From contig CANMBE010000020.1 of NCBI GenBank assembly GCA_947495975.1, positions 1 to 37,249 on the forward strand: DNA of 37,249 nucleotides, given 5' to 3'. This DNA is from Ignavibacteria bacterium. Its GTDB lineage: Bacteria; Bacteroidota; Ignavibacteria; Kapaibacteriales; Kapaibacteriaceae. Every line of letters begins with the position of its first letter. Position 1 is the stretch's first letter. Position numbers and translations under genes: made by a program. Shown here in pieces: positions 1,627 to 16,599 of this stretch. The notes below the pieces were generated by a model, which was given only the letters and a program-made list of their open reading frames with translations, was not told where the DNA came from and did no database searches.

Positions 1627-3492
1627 CTATTGCATCACGCCGTCAAGTTGACGTGTGATGCGATCCTTCCTATCGAGACGGCGCGCAAGATCACGATAAC
1701 TGCGGAAACCAGCAGTATCGGAAAATGCGTCAAGTCTGTACATGGCCATTGTGCCAAGACTTGAGAGAGTTGTTTGACGCAAGGACACATCAAGCCTCTC
1801 TGTACGGCCAGCTAAGGCAGCTACAAGGGCTGAAGTACCACCTAACCCATTTCTCTGGGTTGCGCTTGCGTTAGGCCGCACAAGTCTCACTAAGGGTCCC
1901 GCTGGACGCCTCTCATACCCTTGAGCAAACCCAGGTTCTTCATTGAGTAGCTCAGGTGTGATATATACCGGCCTATCTAGGTTTTTCTCTAAGAACGCAT
2001 TCAATAGATCAACAAACCGCTGTTGTATGTTTCGCACATTTGTTTGGTTCAGGTTAAAAGTTTTAGAATTTGATTCAAACAATTCGAGGTAGGGCATATA
2101 AGCGTTAACCTCATCCTGTATGCGTCCCATCACCGTTGGATACCGCTGCAATAGCCATGGAGCATACCATGTACGCCGGAGTAACTCCTTATCGATAAGA
2201 GTAACGTCTGCCCTAACATCCTCTGCCGTTTGCAGGTACCATGCGGCAGAGCAGAAGTAGTCCCACTGACGAGTGAGAATGATTGCATTTGGCTCAGCAT
2301 TATCGAGTATCCATTCCGTATAGTTTGTAACAGCTGTGTGTGCTGACTTATCCTGCTGCTTCCACTGCATAATGAGCACAATGCAAGGCACAACAAGCAA
2401 CGCCCATTGCGCATTGCGTGGAAGCTTGCCGAGAAGAGACACAAGTCCGCACGCAAAGAGAATTATGAAAATCAGAAGCGATGGCAAGAAGTACGGTTCA
2501 AGATCTTGAATAGCATAACCGAATGAGATGCCAAGGTTGCCCACAATCAAAACGAGGAATCCCACACCAAATCGTTTCTTCGCACCCAATGTTCGCCACA
2601 ATCCTACAGCCGCCGGAATAAGGCCAACCCAGAGGAGCATGGTTGTAAGAATCTGCATGAATAACGCCACATTCACAGAGAATGCCTTTTTATCGCTGAA
2701 CAACCACACGCCAAACTGTGTGCCTTTTACGTGATAGAGAAAGGCATCTATACCTCGTGATACCATACCCCAATTGATAGGGGGCTCTTGGGCACTCCGA
2801 ATTGGAAGCACGGCGTACAATGCGAGGCCCACAAGAGCGGGCACAACAATAAAGGGCCATCGCTTTAGCCGCACGCGTGGCGCATCAGAACCAGAAAGCC
2901 ATAAAACAATAAACCCTGGCGCAAGAAATGCTGAAGACAGATGATTCGATAACATCAAGCCATACAACAGTCCAGCGAGAATACTCCAACGCTGCGCATT
3001 GGCGTTGTTGCGAATACTCTTGATAATGAACAGTAGCGTAATGGCAGTCAACAGCAGATGCAGCGAATACACTTCTATAGAGGTTGCTTGTGCCCAGACT
3101 GTAGCGCTCAATCCAAACATCAAGGCGGATGTTGCTGCTACAATCGGATAAAGATGATCACTTCGTTCTGCGCCTATCCAAACAATTGTTTCTCGGATAA
3201 CGAGATAGCACACACTAACTGCCGCAGCTACCCATAAGGCGGCCAAAACATTGAGTGCTGCAACAGGAGAGCCCCCTAACATCAACGTCCATACGTGTCC
3301 GAGCAGAGTGAAAAGCGGATACCCAGTTGGGTGGGCCACGCCGAATGTTGTACAGGCGGCGGACAGCTCTCCACTGTCTGTGTACATCAGACCAGGTGCC
3401 CGTGTAAGGAGATAAATCACAAAAACAAGAAGGCCAAGGACGGTTGCCTGTATTGCAGGGTTGACCAGTCCTCGGCCGATGATTTTTTTCAT
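1627..3492 (-). CDS. DUF2723 family membrane protein (TMEM260-like glycosyltransferase)
   Basis: This is a 621-residue polytopic membrane protein. The N-terminal DUF2723 region carries the family hallmarks in the first loop: DSGE at 39-42 and HPTGYP at 54-59. About ten hydrophobic segments follow up to roughly residue 375, and then a soluble C-terminal domain. DUF2723 proteins are GT-C-fold enzymes related to human TMEM260, an O-mannosyltransferase; the bacterial members are presumed to transfer a sugar from a lipid carrier to exported proteins. The gene starts 23 bp after the stop of the T9SS cargo gene on the same strand, so the two are probably co-transcribed. That makes the cargo a possible substrate, which is an inference. 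The family assignment is firm, but the sugar and acceptor are unknown. Confidence 0.85.
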   Translation of the reverse strand: MKKIIGRGLVNPAIQATVLGLLVFVIYLLTRAPGLMYTDSGELSAACTTFGVAHPTGYPLFTLLGHVWTLMLGGSPVAALNVLAALWVAAAVSVCYLVIRETIVWIGAERSDHLYPIVAATSALMFGLSATVWAQATSIEVYSLHLLLTAITLLFIIKSIRNNANAQRWSILAGLLYGLMLSNHLSSAFLAPGFIVLWLSGSDAPRVRLKRWPFIVVPALVGLALYAVLPIRSAQEPPINWGMVSRGIDAFLYHVKGTQFGVWLFSDKKAFSVNVALFMQILTTMLLWVGLIPAAVGLWRTLGAKKRFGVGFLVLIVGNLGISFGYAIQDLEPYFLPSLLIFIILFACGLVSLLGKLPRNAQWALLVVPCIVLIMQWKQQDKSAHTAVTNYTEWILDNAEPNAIILTRQWDYFCSAAWYLQTAEDVRADVTLIDKELLRRTWYAPWLLQRYPTVMGRIQDEVNAYMPYLELFESNSKTFNLNQTNVRNIQQRFVDLLNAFLEKNLDRPVYITPELLNEEPGFAQGYERRPAGPLVRLVRPNASATQRNGLGGTSALVAALAGRTERLDVSLRQTTLSSLGTMAMYRLDAFSDTAGFRSYRDLARRLDRKDRITRQLDGVMQ

Positions 3493-3515: not shown

Positions 3516-4223
3516 TCAGCGGGTAATCACAATTGGTGCTGCCACCATCTCGCCACCGGCAAGCGTTACGATGAGACGATACGTTCCGGAGGAGAGGCCA
3601 CTGAGTGGAAGAGTGCTAAGGGGCAATCCAGAGCAACCAAATGAGCGGACGAGATTGCCAGCGGCATTGTAAAGCCCAATTGATTCGGAGGTTGCAAGTG
3701 CTGTTCCACGCACGGTCACATTATCAGAGGCGGGTAGTGGCCCAACGCTCACTCCCATTTCTGACGCTTCGCGCACAGAAGCTGTGGGACTGAACACGAA
3801 TGTTGAGCTGAAACTGATCTTGTCGTTCACGTCTGTCTTATCGAACAGCGACACCTTAATCGTGCTTGTGGCCGAAACGTTGTTTGGCGTAATATCAACA
3901 TAGATTGGAATGGTACCCGTAGGGTTCAGAATCTGGCCAAGGCGCTCATATGGATCATCGCCTGGTCCTGGATACAACGCCCAACACATATTCATGCAGA
4001 GCTGCGCCGAGTGTTCAAAGGAAACATCTCGCAAGTCGTAGGAGAAGTACAGCTCTTTCGCCATTCCATTGAGATTGCGAATTGTGCCGTCACGCTTTAG
4101 AACTCCACCATCAGGAGTGCCATGAATAGTATCTGATACGGCCCAGTCAATAACAAAGGTTTGAGCACCAACTGTTACGGAAATCAGTAGGCCAGCGATA
4201 AGTGTAAGTACATGAGTTTTCAT
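3516..4223 (-). CDS. Secreted protein with T9SS type A sorting domain
   Basis: This is a 235-residue exported protein. The start at 4223 gives a clean signal peptide (MKTHVLTLIAGLLISVTVGA, then Q) with AAGGGA nine nt upstream; a longer in-frame start at 4286 would place 21 unlikely residues before it. The last 80 or so residues match a Por-secretion type A domain: LPASDNVTV, then IGLYNAAGNLV, then LSSGTYRLIV and a terminal VITR. The protein should therefore cross the outer membrane by the type IX system and be anchored or released at the surface. The central domain contains a C-x3-C pair (CMNMC, followed by ALYPGPGDDP), the only close cysteine pair, which could form a disulfide. The divergent operon encodes two thioredoxin-fold proteins. 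The function of the central domain is not recognised. Confidence 0.8.
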   Translation of the reverse strand: MKTHVLTLIAGLLISVTVGAQTFVIDWAVSDTIHGTPDGGVLKRDGTIRNLNGMAKELYFSYDLRDVSFEHSAQLCMNMCWALYPGPGDDPYERLGQILNPTGTIPIYVDITPNNVSATSTIKVSLFDKTDVNDKISFSSTFVFSPTASVREASEMGVSVGPLPASDNVTVRGTALATSESIGLYNAAGNLVRSFGCSGLPLSTLPLSGLSSGTYRLIVTLAGGEMVAAPIVITR

Positions 4224-4255
4224 AATTTGACGTCCCTTAGTTTCAGTTGAGCCTA

Positions 4256-4263
4256 CAAACGTA
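4256..4263 (-). promoter_or_regulatory. Candidate -7 promoter box for the T9SS cargo operon
   Basis: The minus strand reads TACGTTTG, an exact match to the Bacteroidota -7 consensus TAnnTTTG, ending 32 nt before the ATG at 4223. No clear -33 TTG is present at the usual distance, so the call rests on the -7 box and its position only. Confidence 0.4.
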
Positions 4264-4303
4264 CTCATGACGCAGTTAAGACCCATTTGTGACAGGAGAA
4301 TTT

Positions 4304-4816
4304 GTGAAAATGTACCTGATTATTGCGTTGTTGTCGGTTTTTGCACTGCCAAGCGGCATTAAGGCCCAAGACTCGTCTGGTTCACGCGTACCGTCGGTCA
4401 AAATCCGAAGCGTAGCTGGTGTGATAGTCAACACGGCAGACCTCAGTACTGACAACACGCCGGTGATCGTCAGTTTTTGGGCAACGTGGTGCAAACCGTG
4501 CATTCAAGAGCTCCAGACCTATCATGGACTCTATGAGAGTTGGCAACAAAAGTATGGCGCAACACTCATTGCCGTCTCCATCGATGATTCTCGGAATGCG
4601 TCCAAAGTAGCCCCTTTTGTGAGATCTCGTAATTGGACATTTCCGGTATTGCTAGACGTTAATCAAGAGTTTAAACGAGCAATGAATGTGAACAATGTTC
4701 CTCATACATTCGTAATAATGAATGGTAAGGTTGTGTTTTCGCACAGCGCATATTCTCCTGGTGACGAAGACGAGCTAGAAGAACTTCTCAAAAAGCTAAC
4801 TGGCAAAGAAGGATAA
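4304..4816 (+). CDS. TlpA/ResA-like periplasmic thiol-disulfide oxidoreductase
   Basis: This is a 170-residue secreted or membrane-tethered thioredoxin. The start chosen is GTG 4304, five nt after AGGAG (4294-4298); ATG 4310 (11 nt from the same site) or GTG 4289 are alternatives. A signal peptide (to about Q22) leads into a TlpA-like domain with WCKPC at residues 62-66 and a cis-proline loop (NNVPHTFVI) near residue 135. Enzymes of this type reduce or exchange disulfides in exported proteins. It is the first gene of a three-gene operon; the next gene starts 3 bp after its stop. The redox partner is not identifiable here, since no DsbD/CcdA homologue is in the window. Confidence 0.88.
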   Translation: MKMYLIIALLSVFALPSGIKAQDSSGSRVPSVKIRSVAGVIVNTADLSTDNTPVIVSFWATWCKPCIQELQTYHGLYESWQQKYGATLIAVSIDDSRNASKVAPFVRSRNWTFPVLLDVNQEFKRAMNVNNVPHTFVIMNGKVVFSHSAYSPGDEDELEELLKKLTGKEG

Positions 4817-4819
4817 TTC

Positions 4820-6502
4820 GTGAAGGTTCTCATTGTTGGATTTGTATTGATCATTGCAGTCTTCACGCTGCCAGGATTTGGTCAAGGTGTTGACATCCAA
4901 GATGTGGGCACAATCAGCGGCTCGCTGCAGTCAGACATACAAACGTATACGCAGGATACCCTTATCGGAGCGCCTGAAGTTCCTGAACGCATCCTATCGA
5001 ATACGTTTTTCAATCTTCTTTTTACACGCGGTAAATTCACGGCTGGTATCAGATTTGAATCTTACCAGGGCCCACTTCTTGGAATCGATCCTCGATATGG
5101 TACGTCCGGCAATGGCACGGGGCTCGGCATTCCGTATCGGTTTGCGAAATATGCAGACGACAACTTTGAAGTAACTGCCGGAAACTTCTACGAGCAGTTT
5201 GGTAGTGGCATGATCCTCCGAACATATGAAGAACGCAATCTCGGTTTTGATAATTCAATCGATGGATTGCGCCTTCGCTTTATGCCCGTTGATGGAATGA
5301 AGATTACCGGATTCATCGGCCGTCAACGCTCCTTCTGGGAGTTGAGTAATGGACTGATGCGCGGCGGAGATCTCAGCATCGATCTAAAAGAAATGTGCGA
5401 TTCGCTCTTACCAGAGCTCATGCAGTTGTCTCTTGGTGCAAGCGTTGTGAGCAGATTCCAAGCCGACGATCAAGATCTACTGAAGATTCCTACGAATGTA
5501 CTAGCGTGGTCAACAAGAGCAAGCTTCATGTATGCAGACTTCTCTCTTGAACTTGAATATGCATACAAGGTGAACGATCCTTCGGCCACAAACGCACTAA
5601 GCTATAACAACGGAAATGCTCTCTACGTAAATGCATCGTTTTCTGGCACGGGCTATGGTATAAACTTCGCTGCAAAACGAATTGACAACATGGACTTTAG
5701 AAGTGACCGCACAGCAACGGGCTTTGCACAGCAAGTGAACTATTTGCCGTCGCTTACAAAGCAGCACACGTGGAGACTCATTACACTCTACCCGTATGCT
5801 ACGCAGCCAATAGGTGAATTCGGTATGCAGGGTGATGTTACGGTTACTCTTCCAAAGGGGGCTGGCCTTGGTAATGACGAGACGCTCATCTCGCTCAATG
5901 CCTCTGTCATTCATGCGATGGATACAACGCGTACAGGCACCTACACATACGATGTTGCTTTCTGGTGGGCCGATCGCACGTATTACCGCGATGTGAATGT
6001 TGAAATCACTCGGAAGTTTGGTAAAGACTTCAAGATGACTTTAGCATACATTAACGTTCAGTATGATCAGGATGTGATTGAACGCCGGGCATCTCCAAAC
6101 GAATCGGTGTTTGGTGTAATCACCGCAAATTTTGCCTGCCTCGAATTGTGGTTTAAGACTGCAAAGAATCAAAGCCTTCGAACAGAATTTCAGTTTATGT
6201 CTGCCGCTTCTCAGCCTGGCGCAAAGCTTGCACTCCAAAATGGTGATTGGGTGCTTGCACTCGCAGAATATTCAATTTCGCCTCACTGGTACTTTACTGT
6301 GTTCGATGAATACAACTATGGCAACCATGATGAGAAACTTCAAGCGCATTATCCCAATGTAGCGGTGGCGTACAATGCTGGCGCATTGCGAGTCCAAGGC
6401 GGTTACGGTCGAGTTCGTGGGGGTATTCTGTGTGTTGGTGGCATTTGCCGCCCAGTTCCAGCATCGAATGGTGCTAGCTTAAATGTCACATATACTTTCT
6501 GA
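4820..6502 (+). CDS. DUF6029-type outer-membrane protein
   Basis: This is a 560-residue protein with a signal peptide (MKVLIVGFVLIIAVFTLPGFG, cleavage near residue 22) and alternating beta-strand segments throughout, ending in an aromatic residue (NVTYTF), as expected of an outer-membrane beta-barrel. It resembles the uncharacterised DUF6029 family of Bacteroidota, including the early RYGTSGNGTGLGIPYRFAKY and YEERNLGFDNSIDGLRL regions. The start is GTG 4820, preceded by AAGGAT; the gene begins 3 bp after the thioredoxin gene and is followed 7 bp later by the Omp28 gene, so all three are very likely co-transcribed. The molecular function is unknown. The context suggests a channel or scaffold for the flanking thiol proteins (inference). 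Confidence 0.75.
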   Translation: MKVLIVGFVLIIAVFTLPGFGQGVDIQDVGTISGSLQSDIQTYTQDTLIGAPEVPERILSNTFFNLLFTRGKFTAGIRFESYQGPLLGIDPRYGTSGNGTGLGIPYRFAKYADDNFEVTAGNFYEQFGSGMILRTYEERNLGFDNSIDGLRLRFMPVDGMKITGFIGRQRSFWELSNGLMRGGDLSIDLKEMCDSLLPELMQLSLGASVVSRFQADDQDLLKIPTNVLAWSTRASFMYADFSLELEYAYKVNDPSATNALSYNNGNALYVNASFSGTGYGINFAAKRIDNMDFRSDRTATGFAQQVNYLPSLTKQHTWRLITLYPYATQPIGEFGMQGDVTVTLPKGAGLGNDETLISLNASVIHAMDTTRTGTYTYDVAFWWADRTYYRDVNVEITRKFGKDFKMTLAYINVQYDQDVIERRASPNESVFGVITANFACLELWFKTAKNQSLRTEFQFMSAASQPGAKLALQNGDWVLALAEYSISPHWYFTVFDEYNYGNHDEKLQAHYPNVAVAYNAGALRVQGGYGRVRGGILCVGGICRPVPASNGASLNVTYTF

Positions 6503-6509
6503 TGTTCGC

Positions 6510-7397
6510 ATGAAATCAATCTTTCTAGCACTCGCAGTTACGTTGGCTCTCATCACATCTTCATGCGATGTAATTGAAGCCCCTTATCTGAAGAATCCAA
6601 TTGATCCAGCAGATACCTTGTTGAAGGATACATCAGATGTATTCGTCTCAACCTCTGATGCAAAGAATGTTTTGTTAGAAGACTATACGGGACATACGTG
6701 TGGTAACTGTCCTGAAGCTGCAGACGTTGCTACGCTCATCGTGGAGAAGAATCCAGGCAGGATAGTCATGTTATCCGTACACGTGGGCCCATTTGCCACT
6801 CCAGAGTTACCAGACTACCCATATGACTTTCAGACAACGATTGGCGACACGTATGATCAGTTGTTTCGTAATAGCAGAGCAGGTCTTCCTAACGGACTTG
6901 TGAACCGTATGAAGTTTGGCGGCCGGCTTACGCTTGGTCAAAACAACTGGGAGGCGGCTACGAACGCGCAACTGGCTCTGAGCCCAGCGTTAAATATGAC
7001 ACTTAGCCACACATATTATGATTCCAGTAGGACGATTGTAGCAACAGTTGAAACCGAATATCTTACTCCGGGTGAGCCAGACTATTCACTCGTGGTGCTA
7101 TTGACTGAAGACGGAATTATTGAAGATCAAAAGGACTACAGGTTTACACCGTCACATAGAGAAGACTATGAGTTTGATCATGTACTTCGTGTCTCTATGA
7201 ATGGGGCGTGGGGCGATTCGTTGAGTAACGTTGCCCAGCCAATAGGAAAGAAAATCAAGAAGATAATTAGGTTTACTATTCCAGCAGGCGTGGACTGGAA
7301 GCTAGAGAACTCTGATCTTGTTGCATTTGTCTACCGGAGAGAAGACGATCAAACAAGAGAAGTTCTGCAAGTAGTGAAACAGGCCTTCCGACCTTAA
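6510..7397 (+). CDS. Omp28-related lipoprotein with CxxC thioredoxin-like motif
   Basis: This is a 295-residue lipoprotein: the signal ends in the lipobox I-T-S-S-C (Cys19), so the mature protein should be lipid-anchored. The sequence from about residue 50 matches the Omp28-related family: VLLEDYTGHTCGNCPEAA carries a CGNC active-site-like motif (C64, C67) in the place where thioredoxins carry theirs. The distal half is beta-rich and is probably an Ig-like domain. Omp28 was first described as an outer-membrane adhesin-like protein of Porphyromonas gingivalis; its redox role is not established. ATG 6510 is preferred over an in-frame start at 6483 because it gives the signal peptide directly and does not overlap the preceding gene. 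Its stop codon overlaps the convergent Wzi-type gene by 4 bp. Confidence 0.85.
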   Translation: MKSIFLALAVTLALITSSCDVIEAPYLKNPIDPADTLLKDTSDVFVSTSDAKNVLLEDYTGHTCGNCPEAADVATLIVEKNPGRIVMLSVHVGPFATPELPDYPYDFQTTIGDTYDQLFRNSRAGLPNGLVNRMKFGGRLTLGQNNWEAATNAQLALSPALNMTLSHTYYDSSRTIVATVETEYLTPGEPDYSLVVLLTEDGIIEDQKDYRFTPSHREDYEFDHVLRVSMNGAWGDSLSNVAQPIGKKIKKIIRFTIPAGVDWKLENSDLVAFVYRREDDQTREVLQVVKQAFRP

Positions 7398-9049
7398 TAG
7401 CCAATGCGAATCTCAAAGGAAGCAAAGAAGAATTCTTCAGGATTGTTTCCACCATTTCGGTTAGCATAACCAATGCGCACGTCAGAAAATACGTTGGACC
7501 ACCACTCGGCGGAGAACCAAAGACGTACCCTACGCTGATGACTCGCATTACCGCGTAGAAAACTATTGCCGTAAAGGAAGTCTCCATCTCCGCGAAGCAC
7601 ATCACCTCCGGTATTACCAACAGGTACCATTATGCCGGAGCCAGGAAACCGTGGATCTTCTCCTTTAGCAATCGCACCATTGCTATCAAGGATGTTCTCA
7701 CCGTGTCTTGTATAGTCCACGTCTAGCCGGATAAATGTACGTGGCGAAAACCAATGTCGTGCCTGCAATGCAACACGATCTGCGTTAGGAGATAGCTCAT
7801 ACCCAACAGGGGTGCCAAGGGTGGTATACGAAGCGTTGTTGGTCCGATGGGTGAACGTGAACGGATCAACGCGCGCGTACTCAACTGACAGCAGAGATCG
7901 TTGTGCAGCACCGGGAGAACCCAATGCCTGCGAGAAGCCAATCTGATACGCAAACTTGTTGTTGTTGCCCGCAATGGATGTATCGCCAAGAGATCCAAAA
8001 CTCAGGTCATCAATAATGAATGCGCCATAAAACATTGAACCTGGAAATGGACGAACAGCAACATCAAAGCCCATCATTGAATTATCGTTTGCATTTCGCT
8101 CCTGCGTACCCAATCCTGCTGACACAAAAAAGGCGAGCGGATTGAGATACGAAAAATCTAGCCCCCTACCCCAATACACGATCATATCATTCACGGCAAT
8201 ACTTAGCCAGTCTACGGGATCAAATGCTAGTCTGTGAGTTGCAATATATTTGCCAGGAACCGCAATGCCGGCAGTGTCTATGCCATTTGCAGCAGAGTGT
8301 GTCATGGTAAAACGAAGACTCTTGTACGGTACATCAATGAGTAAGCCATCCATTAAGGGAGCGTCAATGGAGTGCACAAAGTTGTCAATTGGACTAAATC
8401 CAAACTGCAGTGCTTCTCTACCAAACCGTACACGAAGCCACTCGTTCTGATATTGAATGTATCCAACATACCTATCGAAGAAGGCACTGTCCTCGATGTT
8501 GAATTTTAGCGTGCGGCTTAGCGTTGGATCTGTTCGTGCAATGAGCGCTGGGTTACCCTTGAGACGCATACCATTGGAGAGATCTAGAAAAAATCCAAGG
8601 TTGTTGCCAAGTGATCCCATAAGCCGAACGGCAGGTCTAAGCAATGCGAATGAGCTTGATGTAGTGCCGTTGTTATAGTATCCTGTACGAAGCATCAGTG
8701 AGATGTCGCCTTGCAATCGTGCAATGCTATCGGCATACGAGATTCCACGAAACCTACCATCAGTTGTTTGCGCAAACTCTAGATCTCGATTAACTGGTGC
8801 GCTTAGTAGAGTAGCACCATAGTACGATTTGATGTATCTGCTGAATGCATCGTTTGTGGCGCGCGTTAGATCTGTGAGTGCATACACAGACTGTGGCCAC
8901 ACGGCAGCTGATCCAAGGGACGCCGTTCCATCAATGGCGCGCAACATCTTTGCATCCATGGACACACGCTCGGCGCTTACGTCGGCATCCTGCGAGCGCA
9001 CATGCTGCGCTGCAATGAAAAGGACAATGAGTGTTACGAGTAGACGCAT
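7394..9049 (-). CDS. Wzi-family outer-membrane beta-barrel (capsule assembly type)
   Basis: This is a 551-residue protein with a signal peptide (MRLLVTLIVLFIAAQHVRSQ) and a long series of amphipathic strands ending in SFEIRIGY, a typical C-terminal barrel strand with a terminal aromatic residue. Segments such as RVRFGREALQFGFSP and IVYWGRGLDFSYLNPLAFF resemble the capsule-assembly Wzi family (a surface-polysaccharide lectin in E. coli). In Bacteroidota this family is widespread and often not linked to capsule genes; no polysaccharide export genes are present here. Its ATG shares one base with the stop of the upstream TPR-SPOR gene (TAATG arrangement), so translation of the two is probably coupled. 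Confidence 0.72.
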   Translation of the reverse strand: MRLLVTLIVLFIAAQHVRSQDADVSAERVSMDAKMLRAIDGTASLGSAAVWPQSVYALTDLTRATNDAFSRYIKSYYGATLLSAPVNRDLEFAQTTDGRFRGISYADSIARLQGDISLMLRTGYYNNGTTSSSFALLRPAVRLMGSLGNNLGFFLDLSNGMRLKGNPALIARTDPTLSRTLKFNIEDSAFFDRYVGYIQYQNEWLRVRFGREALQFGFSPIDNFVHSIDAPLMDGLLIDVPYKSLRFTMTHSAANGIDTAGIAVPGKYIATHRLAFDPVDWLSIAVNDMIVYWGRGLDFSYLNPLAFFVSAGLGTQERNANDNSMMGFDVAVRPFPGSMFYGAFIIDDLSFGSLGDTSIAGNNNKFAYQIGFSQALGSPGAAQRSLLSVEYARVDPFTFTHRTNNASYTTLGTPVGYELSPNADRVALQARHWFSPRTFIRLDVDYTRHGENILDSNGAIAKGEDPRFPGSGIMVPVGNTGGDVLRGDGDFLYGNSFLRGNASHQRRVRLWFSAEWWSNVFSDVRIGYANRNGGNNPEEFFFASFEIRIGY

Positions 9050-9777
9050 TAACGCTTTGTAACAACTGGTTTACACTTGCAAACCGCTCTTACCGCGTCG
9101 ATGTCTTTCTGCGCGTCTGCCTCGGTGTTATACTCTCCCACACTTACTATGTATCGTGTTTTTGGCTTTGACGTTTCTGACGTGACTCTAACTCGCATGT
9201 GTTTCTTCTTAAACTGCTCTACCAATAAATCGGCTTCCGTTTTGCTGAATGTACTGCGAGTGACAAGGGTGTAGAGCTTCGCAGTTTTTGGTACTGACTC
9301 AACAACGGGTTCTGTTTTTTTTGCAACAGCCGCCAATGTTGACGAGCGGTCTGTTGGTGGCGGCGCTCCAACTGTTGTTCGCATAACGTCATACAGGATG
9401 GGGAGAAGCTCGCTCTGAGAATATTGCTCCCTCATCGTAATAAAGGTCTTCTTCGCTTTCTCTGCATCATTCTTTGTGGCGGAGAATATCACAAGACGAG
9501 CAAGGGCATCATCGGCCCACTCGCTCTTGGGGAAGGCGTCCACAATGCGCTCTAGCAAAGGCGCTGCCTTCTTTGGGTCTTCTACGAGTGACGCGTGGAG
9601 AAACAGCACCGCTGGATCGTCAGGAGCATCAATCAACAAATCTGGGAGTGCCTTCTTTGCGTCGGATGTCCACCCGGAGGCAACCTGCTGAATGTAGGCC
9701 TTCACGCTCACTGTTTGAGCGCTCGAAAGCGATTGAAGAATCAGTAACGAAAGAAGGAAGAAAGTGCTTCGCTGCAT
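9049..9777 (-). CDS. Secreted TPR-like protein with C-terminal SPOR domain
   Basis: This 242-residue exported protein starts at ATG 9777, where a signal peptide begins (MQRSTFFLLSLLILQSLSSA); a 74-residue upstream extension is open but not signal-like. The middle is helical with TPR-like repeats (DPAVLFLHASLVEDP, SEWADDALARLVIFS). The last 75 or so residues form a SPOR domain (LYTLVTRSTFSKTEADLLVEQF, then YIVSVGEYNTEADAQKDI), which in characterised proteins binds peptidoglycan strands stripped of stem peptides. It should sit in the periplasm at sites of wall turnover. It is divergent from murG and coupled to the Wzi-type gene, so it may tether that outer-membrane protein to peptidoglycan (inference). 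Confidence 0.78.
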   Translation of the reverse strand: MQRSTFFLLSLLILQSLSSAQTVSVKAYIQQVASGWTSDAKKALPDLLIDAPDDPAVLFLHASLVEDPKKAAPLLERIVDAFPKSEWADDALARLVIFSATKNDAEKAKKTFITMREQYSQSELLPILYDVMRTTVGAPPPTDRSSTLAAVAKKTEPVVESVPKTAKLYTLVTRSTFSKTEADLLVEQFKKKHMRVRVTSETSKPKTRYIVSVGEYNTEADAQKDIDAVRAVCKCKPVVTKR

Positions 9778-13862: not shown

Positions 13863-14171
13863 TTAGATTTTAATGTCAGTGATGGTGATGCTCGTGAACA
13901 ACTGACGGTGACCGTTCAGTTTTTGATAGCCCTTGCGGCGCTTCTTGTGGAACACGAGAACTTTTTCGCCCTTGCCATGCTCAATAACAGTTGCCGTAAC
14001 AGAACCCTTGATAAAGGGTGTGCCTACAGAAACATTGCCGTTGTCGCTCGCGAGGAGGATGTTCTTAAATTCTACGATGTCGCCAACGTTTTTGTCCATC
14101 AGTGGAACCTTCACGGTTTGGTCCGGAGCCACTGCGTACTGTTGACCTGATATCTCTACTACTGCGTACAT
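13863..14171 (-). CDS. rplU: 50S ribosomal protein L21
   Basis: This 102-residue L21 starts at ATG 14171 ([20 protein letters not shown]), the canonical N-terminus; a 21-residue in-frame extension upstream is not part of the family. The C-terminal basic region [18 protein letters not shown] is the 23S rRNA-binding hallmark. It is the first gene of the rplU-rpmA-mdh unit, with a promoter-like sequence about 40 bp upstream. Confidence 0.97.
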
Positions 14172-14209
14172 GTGTTTCTTGCTTGGCGTTGTACGAAAAA
14201 AGGACGCGC

Positions 14210-14238
14210 AATATACAGGGTAGGCCTCAGACAAACAA
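14210..14238 (-). promoter_or_regulatory. Candidate promoter of rplU-rpmA-mdh
   Basis: On the minus strand TTGTTT (14238-14233) and TATATT (14215-14210) are separated by 17 bp, with the -10/-7 box 38 bp before the rplU ATG. It fits a standard housekeeping promoter and approximates the Bacteroidota TAnnTTTG box. Confidence 0.5.
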
Positions 14239-14351
14239 GTGGGTTAGGGAGATTTCCACAGTAACCTTTCCAATTTTCATCCGTTAGAGCCCCCTTTCTG
14301 AGAAACTACCTAACAAATATCCCCCGTGAAGCGTGGCTTTGGACCGCCGGT

Positions 14352-14585
14352 TTGGTGAGTGTGGCCGTGTTGGCTCCGGCCCTGGATGGCTCCATAACCC
14401 TATGTATACCAACGCTCTTGGGGTTTGACGGCTGTTTGGGCTGTGGGCTTGGACGGTCTATCGGCCACCTGGCTCGCGGACAGCTGGGCGAGTCATGGGC
14501 AGCCAACCCATTGGGTATCCCGGCAGTTTTGATTATTATCGCTCGCATTGTTCAACTGGTCCGGCTACGCCAATCAATTTCTTGA
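14352..14585 (+). CDS. DUF2752 family small membrane protein
   Basis: The core of this small protein matches DUF2752: an LCIPTLLGFDGC segment, then GCGLGRSIGHLARGQ, then SWAANPLGIPAVLIIIARI, with two hydrophobic segments. DUF2752 proteins are common in Bacteroidota, have no established function, and often neighbour TM2-domain genes, as here. The start is uncertain. TTG 14352 is the first usual start codon, but the reading frame stays open back to 14265, and the upstream residues (IPREAWLWTAG, from 14319) look like part of the family. Translation may therefore begin at a non-standard codon such as CTG 14298. The 3' end is 7 bp before the TM2 gene. Confidence 0.7.
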   Translation: MVSVAVLAPALDGSITLCIPTLLGFDGCLGCGLGRSIGHLARGQLGESWAANPLGIPAVLIIIARIVQLVRLRQSIS

Positions 14586-14592
14586 GGGTTCC

Positions 14593-14952
14593 ATGGCAAA
14601 TGTCCTACAATACATTCCGGACGCAGACGGAGGAGAGATCTCGTATCTAAACATGATCGTATCTCCGATGAGCGAGGAACAAGCAATGCAGTTTGCAATG
14701 ATGTATCGCTCCAGACGCAAGGAGCCGCAGATGATCCTCATCCTTGCCTTAGTAGGATTTGTATTCGCTGCAGGCATTCACCGTTTTGTTCTTGGACATA
14801 TCGGCTTGGGAATCCTTTATCTCTTGACTGGTGGTCTGTGCTTCATTGGTACGATCATCGATATTGTTAACTACCGTAAGCTTGCGGCAGAATACAATCA
14901 GCAACAGGCATATGAAGTAGCGAACACTATGCGGTCCATGGGCCAACTGTAA
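14593..14952 (+). CDS. TM2 domain-containing membrane protein
   Basis: This 119-residue protein starts at ATG 14593, with GAGGG five nt upstream. After a soluble N-terminus of about 50 residues, two hydrophobic helices form a TM2 domain: ILILALVGFVFAAGIHRFVLG, where the usual G-x-H-RFYLG-type turn is present as GIHRFVLGHIGLGI, then LYLLTGGLCFIGTIIDIVNY. TM2 proteins are small membrane proteins of unknown bacterial function. It pairs with the DUF2752 gene directly upstream. Confidence 0.85.
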   Translation: MANVLQYIPDADGGEISYLNMIVSPMSEEQAMQFAMMYRSRRKEPQMILILALVGFVFAAGIHRFVLGHIGLGILYLLTGGLCFIGTIIDIVNYRKLAAEYNQQQAYEVANTMRSMGQL

Positions 14953-14973
14953 CCTACACTTCACGTTGAATAT

Positions 14974-15006
14974 GAAGGTCATGAGGTATGTTGCTTCATG
15001 ACCTTC
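14974..15006 (+). promoter_or_regulatory. Perfect 11-bp stem-loop over the phosphatase start codon
   Basis: GAAGGTCATGA (14974-14984) and TCATGACCTTC (14996-15006) are exact reverse complements separated by an 11-nt loop. The right arm contains the ATG (14998-15000) of the next gene, and the left arm overlaps the purine-rich GAGGT (14983-14987). No T-run follows, so it does not look like a terminator. In RNA it would hide the start codon. Confidence 0.55.
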
Positions 15007-16599
15007 CTTCGTTTTGGACTTTTGATTGTCTGCCTGCTTACGATTGTAGCACGCGGAGCGGCTGCGCAAAAGCCGCCGCGGCTAGTTGTGATTGTTTCAT
15101 TTGATCAATATCGCGGAGATTATCCAACGTTGTTTTCACGATTCGTTGGCAAGCGCGGATTTGCTCGAATGCAGAAACAGGGTGCTTCGTTCACAAAGTG
15201 TTATTACGAACACGCTAACAACATCACTGGACCTGGACACGCATCGCTACTCACGGGTTGTTATCCCGCCCGCACGGGAATTGTAGGAAACGACTTTTGC
15301 GACCTACGCACAGGTTCTTGCACGTATTGTGCAGATGATGACAAGGGGCTCAAGAGTGCCGAGCAATTAGAAGTGCCAACCATTGGCGATTTACTCAGAC
15401 AGAAGAATACGGCATCGAGGGTTGTTGGCATATCATTGAAAGACCGCGCCGGCATTCTTATGTCGGGTAAAAGTGCAACTACCTGTGTGTGGTATGACAT
15501 GAATACACATCGCTGGACGACAAGCTCGTATTACCCAACGCCGCAGTGGCTACCCACGCTTAACCGAACAATCCGTTCTTCGAAATACGCAGGTCGTTCC
15601 TGGACGACTCGCATCCCTCAATCCCTCAACCCGGCGTATGACAGCGTTGATGCCGAAGGTGCGTACCCCGGTGGCAACACTACGTTCCCGCATCAGGTGC
15701 TCGATGCCGGGCACCCAAAGTTTGAAGCGAGTGTGGTGCTTAGCCCCTTTGGCATAGACATGGTATTTGACGCAGCATCCATAGCGCTCACAAAGGAAGA
15801 ACTTGGCAAAGACAAGTGGCCTGATGTGTTGTGTATTGGAGTATCGTCATCCGATTACGTGGGACACGTATTTGGTCCAGATAGTAGGGAAGTGCAAGAG
15901 CTGTACGCGCATGCAGATAAACGAATCGAAAAACTCATTGACCAACTCGATGCAGGTATTGGACGTGCCAATTACATCCTTGTGATCACATCGGATCATG
16001 GAGTAGCTCCAGTACCAGAAGTAATCAGAAATATTTCTCAGCAGCAAGGGGCCTTCATTGACGCCGGAAGAATTCGCGAGTCAGAGATCAAAGCAATTGT
16101 TGATTCTGTACTTGGGGCGAAGTTCGGTAAGCCACCAACGGCATCCTACGTTCGCGAGATCAGCGAGCCGTCCATCTACCTGCAGGACTCAGCAATTGCG
16201 CATCTCAACAGAGCCGCCGTATTAGAAGTAGTTGTTGCTGCCCTAAAACGTCATCCGGGCCTTGGGATAGTTGCCACTCGAGACACACTTGCACTTGGAG
16301 ATTGTCCAGAGGGTGCAGACGAAGCAACGTGCCGATATGTGCTCAACAGCTTCCATGCATCGCGCAGTGGAGACATCGTGATATATCCAAAGCGCTACTG
16401 GATCATTGGTGGTAACACTGCAACACATGGAACGCCGCATGACTATGACCGTTACGTTCCTCTGATGATGCTCGGAGGTGGCATGAGACAACAGAACTCT
16501 GATGCGCCTGTTGCACCTGTTGATATTGCACCCACCCTAGCACTGCGACTAGGATTGGTCATAGGGCCAATAGATGGAAAGCCCCTTCCGATGAAATAG
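14998..16599 (+). CDS. Secreted alkaline-phosphatase-superfamily enzyme (PafA/PhoV-like)
   Basis: This 533-residue protein has a signal peptide (MTFLRFGLLIVCLLTIVARGAAA) and an alkaline-phosphatase-superfamily fold: metal-binding D in VIVSFDQYRGDY, nucleophile region HANNITGPGHASLLTGCYP (the N-x-T-GPGHA form, with Thr rather than Ser, typical of PafA-type phosphate-irrepressible alkaline phosphatases), then SSSDYVGHVFGPDS and TSDHGVAP for the metal ligands, and a late H in THGTPHDYDRYVPL. It should hydrolyse phosphate monoesters in the periplasm or outside the cell. The start lies in a perfect hairpin (14974-15006). It is convergent with the acyl-CoA dehydrogenase gene. Confidence 0.9.
   Translation: MTFLRFGLLIVCLLTIVARGAAAQKPPRLVVIVSFDQYRGDYPTLFSRFVGKRGFARMQKQGASFTKCYYEHANNITGPGHASLLTGCYPARTGIVGNDFCDLRTGSCTYCADDDKGLKSAEQLEVPTIGDLLRQKNTASRVVGISLKDRAGILMSGKSATTCVWYDMNTHRWTTSSYYPTPQWLPTLNRTIRSSKYAGRSWTTRIPQSLNPAYDSVDAEGAYPGGNTTFPHQVLDAGHPKFEASVVLSPFGIDMVFDAASIALTKEELGKDKWPDVLCIGVSSSDYVGHVFGPDSREVQELYAHADKRIEKLIDQLDAGIGRANYILVITSDHGVAPVPEVIRNISQQQGAFIDAGRIRESEIKAIVDSVLGAKFGKPPTASYVREISEPSIYLQDSAIAHLNRAAVLEVVVAALKRHPGLGIVATRDTLALGDCPEGADEATCRYVLNSFHASRSGDIVIYPKRYWIIGGNTATHGTPHDYDRYVPLMMLGGGMRQQNSDAPVAPVDIAPTLALRLGLVIGPIDGKPLPMK

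Follow-up and report, generated by a model that had tools for sequence, protein, structure and literature searches.

Organization of the locus and its conserved cysteines

The DNA analysed here, hereafter the window, is a stretch of 37,249 nucleotides (contig C20; CANMBE010000020.1) from the 2.18-Mb genome of an Ignavibacteria bacterium (GCA_947495975.1). It carries three consecutive open reading frames (ORFs) on the + strand, separated by gaps of 3 bp and then 7 bp, that encode a TlpA-like thioredoxin, a DUF6029 outer-membrane β-barrel and an Omp28 lipoprotein, and, divergent from them, a gene for a protein with a weak type IX secretion system (T9SS) tail. Each of these four linked genes encodes a conserved cysteine pair, i.e. 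CxxC in TlpA, C-x4-C in DUF6029, CxxC in Omp28 and, in the window, C-x3-C in the T9SS-tailed protein. Because such pairs in four linked proteins suggest an outer-membrane chemistry of thiols and disulfides, we propose that the locus is a thiol-disulfide module of this membrane, a reading to which we assign a probability of roughly 0.47. The initial annotation had described the three co-directional genes, their spacing and their motifs, all of which are borne out by the sequence and by Pfam. The closest titled relatives of the window DUF6029 protein (82% identity) come from Candidatus Kapaibacterium and uncultured Ignavibacteria.

The first gene (4304-4816, + strand) starts with GTG, has an in-frame ATG at 4310 and encodes a TlpA/ResA-like thioredoxin of 170 residues with WCKPC at residues 62-66 (Cys codons within 4490-4501); hydrophobic N-termini were recognized by eye on this protein and on the DUF6029 protein. 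Pfam matches it to AhpC-TSA (68.4 bits, cut-off 26) and Redoxin (56.4 bits, cut-off 26.6), and among solved chains 2m72, which belongs to an uncharacterised thioredoxin-like protein, is nearest in sequence. With the periplasmic TlpA/ResA thioredoxins it has the Redoxin domain and the WCxPC motif in common, but it lies below every curated NCBIfam cut-off (74.5 against 170 bits for the ResA model) and is tied to an outer-membrane barrel.

The second gene (4820-6502, + strand; GTG start) encodes the DUF6029 protein of 560 residues, whose assignment as an outer-membrane β-barrel is based on Pfam (PF19494, 563.3 bits against a cut-off of 27 over residues 3-560), on an AlphaFold2 (AF2) model (pLDDT 89.3, pTM 0.82) and on structural alignment. 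In the model, 24 strands were counted from DSSP. The loops from odd to even strands are long (median 14.5 residues) and the turns from even to odd strands short (median 3), which is the pattern expected of the outer and inner sides, respectively; exceptions include outer loop 7-8 with 2 residues and inner loop 8-9 with 12. Foldseek returned diffuse barrel matches and VIA-align clearer ones, the best of those listed being the translocation domain of FimD (Z 18.3, root mean square deviation (rmsd) 4.5 Å over 372 residues, model residues 31-560 against 139-656), with which all structures within 1 Z are counted as tied, including OccK3 (Z 17.5, rmsd 6.2 Å). The likeness to the FimD/PapC usher barrels would consist in the modelled 24-strand barrel. 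Sequence identity is 11%, and in contrast to the ushers DUF6029 has a cysteine hairpin and lacks the N- and C-terminal periplasmic domains, given that the barrel fills residues 31-560 and that DUF6029 is the sole Pfam match at E-values up to 1.

Cysteines are found in the window DUF6029 protein only at positions 193, 440, 538 and 543, and among 82 DUF6029 sequences only the columns of C538 and C543 have Cys in at least 15% of the rows. The motif formed by this pair (CVGGIC; 6431-6448, + strand) lies within the hairpin of strands 23 and 24, which, by a prediction from one AF2 model, faces the outer side or the lumen. C-x4-C is present in 81 of the 82 sequences and is retained at DUF6029 loci without a thioredoxin neighbour; the lone exception, L056, is broken upstream of the motif, and a separate downstream piece carries CVGGVC. 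The cysteine loop is the most conserved loop of the protein (mean 0.84), and mean conservation decreases from the outer-side loops (0.64) over the strands (0.57) to the inner turns (0.48), with strand and loop limits set by hand from the AF2 model and the cysteine hairpin counted as a loop. Of the 52 named loci, 48 entered the DUF6029 alignment (A1) together with the window protein; L074, L082, L089 and L105 were omitted as near-duplicates or cut. In surface proteins the outer loops usually vary most, and their conservation here makes the outer side of DUF6029 look like a working face. At L056 itself (6214-7934, the DUF6029 gene of genome G023) the gene falls into two pieces in different frames, the second of which contains undetermined residues; a fault of the assembly may be the cause.

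The third gene (6510-7397, + strand; ATG start) encodes the Omp28 lipoprotein of 295 residues, which is composed of a lipobox (LITSSC, with C19), a thioredoxin-like domain and an Ig-like domain. The Pfam match (PF11551, 96.6 bits, cut-off 34.9) covers residues 124-292 only, and as NCBIfam NF033782 is narrowly missed (138.6, cut-off 150) we claim only the Pfam family. In the AF2 model (pLDDT 92.3) the N-terminal half is thioredoxin-like: the CGNC motif at residues 64-67 (6699-6710, + strand) opens helix 67-80, and P127, which we take to stand where thioredoxins have their cis-proline, precedes strand 128-131. The conservation of C64 and C67, on which the initial annotation had made its redox proposal depend, proved to be complete in 31 single-domain proteins, in which C19, E57, T60, C64, C67, P68, H91, P127, E200, Q207 and R227 are invariant. 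This alignment (A2) consisted of the window protein and 30 of the 32 proteins within the single-domain size and score limits (L082 and L089 omitted), and cysteines were not a criterion for inclusion. Moreover, the locus survey described below includes 61 Omp28-like ORFs that lie no more than 1.5 kb from DUF6029, and each of them has a CxxC, counted anywhere in the ORF.

The best structural match of the Omp28 model is HBP35 of Porphyromonas gingivalis (PDB 5y1a; Z 24.7, rmsd 2.5 Å, 221 residues), with which it appears to share the two-domain fold, thioredoxin-like plus Ig-like, and a thioredoxin motif with two active-site cysteines (PMC2907840). However, the export and anchoring of HBP35 depend on a T9SS C-terminal domain, whereas Omp28 is a lipoprotein in which neither Pfam nor NCBIfam detects a Por_Secre_tail at E-values up to 1, and a DUF6029 partner is not mentioned for HBP35 in the available part of that source (PMC2907840). 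Omp28 of P. gingivalis (2r2c; PF11551; NF033782) resembles the C-terminal domain in sequence and fold, but the solved chain 2r2c covers one domain only. The proposal that Omp28 is exposed at the cell surface gains no support from the N-terminus of the mature protein, as C-D-V-I-E differs from the published optimal export signal of Capnocytophaga canimorsus, C-X-K-(D/E)2-X, a consensus that may not be that of this lineage. A selenocysteine variant of Omp28 was considered and rejected: the Omp28-related selenoprotein model scored 22.5 against 200 bits, and reading TGA as selenocysteine gave three pattern matches (L066, L088 and L097) that were judged by eye to be chance.

Conservation of the gene neighbourhood

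The association of the three genes was followed at two levels, in 118 genomes across the phylum that are at least 90% complete and in a survey of loci drawn from wider stretches and 52 titled loci. The latter yielded 84 distinct DUF6029 sequences, 72 of them with 1.5 kb on both sides; these loci are related and partly redundant and do not represent independent events. Of the 72 loci, 40 have the canonical order TlpA-DUF6029-Omp28 on one strand, so that the trio is not rarely adjacent in related genomes, a rarity that the initial annotation had named as refuting its proposal. Both partners are otherwise placed in 6 loci, TlpA alone is present in 15 (in 9 of these with TlpA-like neighbours downstream), Omp28 alone in 3 and neither in 8, one of which (L084) has TlpA in an over-long ORF outside the length limit. 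The limits also affect L062, where an Omp28-like ORF scores 99 bits against the limit of 110. Among ORFs of at least 150 residues, those that are TlpA- or Omp28-like by the respective profiles make up 135 of 377 within 1.5 kb of DUF6029 as opposed to 6 of 503 beyond 3 kb, which exceeds chance expectation; here the units are ORFs rather than curated genes and the loci are not phylogenetically independent. When iterated, the TlpA and Omp28 profiles drifted to T9SS tails, and the counts for the 72 loci were obtained with score and length limits; weak matches that reflect this drift, such as the window gene at 3516-4286, are not relatives of Omp28. Among the upstream TlpA-like ORFs, 70 of 71 contain CxxC, again counted anywhere in the ORF, and the one without it (L044, 2932-3642) is a misclassified Cys-pair cargo protein.

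DUF6029 is present in 33 of the 118 genomes and Omp28 in 26, in 23 of them above the cut-off, and all 23 have DUF6029 (Fisher test, 5e-17, ignoring phylogeny). By E-value both genes occur in 24 genomes and are neighbours in 20, the exceptions being G009, G017, G023 and G039; the G023 stretch has an Omp28-like ORF adjoining DUF6029 that the Pfam search did not list. Whole-genome searches of 16 genomes whose locus is bare or partial found Omp28 in all 16, although Omp28 is already next door in L092 and L094, which makes the informative count 14 of 14; in the genome of L106 only a 694-residue ORF of the Omp28 family is above the cut-off. Of the 20 loci from this search, 18 have a CxxC in their Omp28-like ORF, and none was found in L136 and L137. 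Thus, when the DUF6029 and Omp28 genes separate, the partner remains in the genome. Independently of these counts, L070 carries the module twice at a distance of 6,011 bp (8001-9680 and 14012-15691), with identical DUF6029 and with neighbours equal in length, gap and score, reflecting either the assembly or a recent tandem duplication.

Nine genomes of family f21 have DUF6029 and no Omp28 match. In all nine a TlpA with CKPC precedes DUF6029 and a TlpA-like protein with CPHC or CTHC follows it, and in eight there is a second downstream TlpA-like protein of 265-275 residues with CPHC or CSHC. In L041, the only f21 pair scanned, both downstream proteins have a Redoxin domain; the first begins with a lipobox-like sequence, and the second has a T9SS tail. 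The feature common to the lineages is that a protein of the thioredoxin type stands next to the barrel; it need not be Omp28.

T9SS-tailed proteins and neighbouring genes

The fourth gene (3516-4223, - strand; ORF open to 4286) encodes 235 residues from the likely ATG, with C76-x3-C80. Its Por_Secre_tail is below the cut-offs (21.1 against 27 bits in Pfam, 13.2 against 23 in NCBIfam), while its relatives in L060, L061 and L118 pass. Pfam has no domain of its own for this family in the four proteins scanned (the window protein, L060, L118 and L061), and L060 matches DUF1573 with 27.9 against 26.1 bits over one repeat. The 37 aligned domain copies have a mean column identity of 26% and share only one invariant Asn and two invariant Cys, and the cysteines are spaced C-x3-C or C-x4-C in 36 copies and more widely in L049; this alignment (A3) contains 37 of 40 copies, with L060:7937-8329, L078 and L105, a cut piece with one Cys, omitted. 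Near DUF6029 the Cys-pair profile is found in 38 of 85 loci, cut loci included, a number biased by the profile having been built from sequences near DUF6029. The genome-wide search is fairer: the family is matched in 17 of the 118 genomes, 13 of which have DUF6029, with four weaker matches in DUF6029-negative genomes (Fisher test, 8.9e-6, ignoring phylogeny), and in the 13 the gene lies within 3 kb of DUF6029 in 11, 6.3 kb away in one and elsewhere in one. In many loci the genes upstream of TlpA include long proteins that combine a T9SS tail with a domain of the thioredoxin or Omp28 kind. Three of these were scanned: all exceed the cut-off for the T9SS tail, L096 and L107 also that for Omp28, and the thioredoxin match of L116 stays below its cut-off. 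In L060, L061 and L062 (genomes G062, G113 and G027), DUF6029 has beside it a cluster of several proteins that are Omp28-like or carry Cys pairs and T9SS tails, and L060 has three Cys-pair domains in a row at 6863-8350.

The initial annotation had further proposed that the locus supports the folding of T9SS cargo and had named co-occurrence of the trio with T9SS genes as a check. SprA is present in 33 of 33 DUF6029 genomes against 91 of 118 overall (Fisher test, 4.8e-5), but it is found in 64 of 67 genera, and 19 of 20 listed SprA-negative genomes (7 more are unlisted) come from one family. As SprA is nearly universal by genus and its absence mostly confined to one family, its co-occurrence does not discriminate, and dependence of DUF6029 on the T9SS was rejected as a conclusion from it. 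Conversely, with SprA in 91 genomes and DUF6029 in 33, DUF6029 is not needed for the T9SS, and the proposed role in cargo folding is not supported. In G045 (contig C26), SprA_N matches at 38553-43121 and DUF6029 at 49717-51366 lie about 6.6 kb apart.

Two further genes flank the locus. A Wzi-like barrel (7394-9049, - strand; Caps_assemb_Wzi, 45.5 bits, cut-off 30.1) is convergent with Omp28 and overlaps its end by 4 bp, and a TMEM260-like membrane protein of a predicted O-mannosyl-transferase family (1627-3492, - strand; 98.8 bits, cut-off 24.2) adjoins the T9SS-tailed gene. PADLOC gave no match for the four locus proteins, and an anti-phage reading of the locus was rejected. A scan for promoters and terminators was uninformative, with fewer sites than the mean of shuffled sequences.

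A possible thiol-disulfide module of the outer membrane

Thiol-disulfide chemistry at or beyond the outer membrane has precedents in T9SS bacteria. HBP35 has a form located at the cell surface and, in vitro, a thioredoxin activity that requires its cysteines (PMC2907840), and T9SS bacteria depend on functional disulfides at the outer membrane, as in SprF and PorG, whose twin cysteines (CxC in a periplasmic tail) are disulfide-linked to GldK in T9SS and gliding (PMC12635249). DUF6029 resembles SprF and PorG in being an outer-membrane protein with twin cysteines in T9SS-type bacteria; functional disulfides are a feature of SprF/PorG (PMC12635249), and DUF6029 differs in having no CxC in a periplasmic C-terminal tail, its conserved pair being C-x4-C in a loop on the predicted outer side. 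Furthermore, a 2026 preprint links T9SS-exported and lipoprotein thioredoxins of Muribaculaceae to high-fat diet (PMC13404670), and in Paraprevotella a protein that is related to Omp28 and depends on the T9SS recruits trypsin (PMC9477747). In the literature searched, DUF6029 is named in one paper, which deals with outer-membrane polysaccharide export (OPX; PMC9603273), and "Omp28-related" was not found together with "thioredoxin". No description of the TlpA-DUF6029-Omp28 trio was recognised among the matches listed, most subscription papers lying outside the scope of the search. The trio looks like an uncharacterised system that handles disulfides at the outer membrane of Bacteroidota-type bacteria.

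Combining these data, the part of the earlier thiol-redox proposal that stands is the one carried by the linkage across Bacteroidota-type genomes, the invariant CxxC of Omp28 and its HBP35-like modelled fold; surface exposure of Omp28, its being held or carried by the barrel, direct exchange with TlpA and the role for T9SS cargo were not supported. Stronger evidence than was available to the initial annotation comes from the invariant C-x4-C of the barrel itself and from the linked T9SS-tailed Cys-pair protein. Thiol-redox pathways across the inner membrane are formed by DsbD and CcdA proteins. The window genome has one DsbD_TM match and no match to VKOR or DsbB, which favours the reducing direction; overall, VKOR is found in 5 of 33 DUF6029 genomes and in 21 of 85 others, and no link was seen. 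In our model, the single DsbD-like protein would keep TlpA reduced, and TlpA would exchange thiols with the module. The cysteine hairpin of the barrel may be redox-active and within reach of Omp28, possibly also of the T9SS-tailed protein; Omp28 would reduce or reshuffle disulfides at or beyond the outer membrane, and T9SS-exported Cys-pair proteins are candidate end users. TlpA might gain access to the outer side by way of the wide barrel or might meet the barrel prior to insertion, but it might also never act there. What we infer is that transfer crosses the membrane and in which direction, that the barrel contacts Omp28 and that Omp28 is exposed at the surface. The most specific form of the model, a dedicated relay in which electrons from DsbD and TlpA pass via the 24-strand barrel with its outer cysteine hairpin to the thioredoxin lipoprotein and to surface T9SS-exported Cys-pair proteins, we regard as rather unlikely as it stands.

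Several observations weigh against a thiol-disulfide module. Neither partner is nearby in 7 of the 72 loci, outer loops 15-16, 17-18 and 19-20 are poorly conserved (0.33, 0.41 and 0.27), and the T9SS-tailed family is unmatched in 20 of the 33 DUF6029 genomes, from which we conclude that its gene is an accessory part. A conserved disulfide can be structural only, and DsbD and TlpA proteins also serve other pathways. VKOR in 5 of 33 DUF6029 genomes indicates that the lack of an oxidising source is not general (DsbB was searched in the window genome only), and Omp28 may face the periplasm. For the relay in particular, the barrel has a single conserved cysteine pair that faces away from TlpA, and electron transfer across the membrane would need an unseen step.

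This topology problem disappears if C-x4-C is a structural disulfide of the barrel that TlpA, with or without Omp28, makes or corrects before insertion, with Omp28 as a lipoprotein partner, much as DsbC and LptE serve LptD. The position of the cysteine hairpin in the most conserved loop and the greater constancy of TlpA as a neighbour (near 61 of 72 loci, compared with 49 of 72 for Omp28) agree with such maturation of the barrel. Nevertheless, it leaves unexplained the invariant CxxC and P127 of Omp28, the downstream TlpA-like proteins in the nine genomes without Omp28 and the linked T9SS-tailed Cys-pair family, and a reducing line from DsbD to TlpA makes no disulfides itself; we consider this explanation doubtful.

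A different use of the same cysteines is suggested by the precedent of intermolecular disulfides formed by twin-cysteine outer-membrane proteins of T9SS bacteria (PMC12635249): C-x4-C could be a strained donor disulfide that enters a lasting intermolecular bond and so fixes either Omp28 or the T9SS-tailed protein to the cell surface, in the way that GldK is bonded to SprF and PorG. The linked T9SS-tailed protein with its invariant Cys pair would suit this arrangement. However, the SprF/PorG cysteines are CxC in a periplasmic tail as opposed to C-x4-C on the predicted outer side, and the thioredoxin-type residues of Omp28 exceed the needs of a tether, which makes anchoring improbable. Next to tight turns, cross-strand disulfides tend to be under strain and to be reduced readily. 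Finally, DUF6029 could be a porin or exporter for polysaccharide, heme or iron that the thioredoxin-fold neighbours protect or load and whose cysteines are structural. Some Wzi-like barrels for which polysaccharide secretion has been suggested are similar to DUF6029 in HHpred (PMC9603273), a Wzi-like gene lies next door in the window, HBP35 binds hemin (PMC2907840), and DUF6029 can also be aligned with OccK porins (Z up to 17.5) and with AlgE (Z up to 14.4). But the porin alignments have an rmsd of about 6 Å over fewer residues than that of FimD, and a transport function gives no reason to expect a conserved Cys pair in every component; we hold it to be very improbable.

Returning to the thiol-disulfide module, its significance lies in how thioredoxins located at the outer membrane or outside it are recharged, a question to which, to our knowledge, there is no answer. 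If true, the relay would explain how surface thioredoxins such as HBP35 are recharged from inside the cell. With an uncharacterised barrel, its invariant cysteine hairpin on the predicted outer side and its syntenic thioredoxin-fold partners, the question of recharging gains named genes and cysteines, and DUF6029 and Omp28 gain a role that can be tested.

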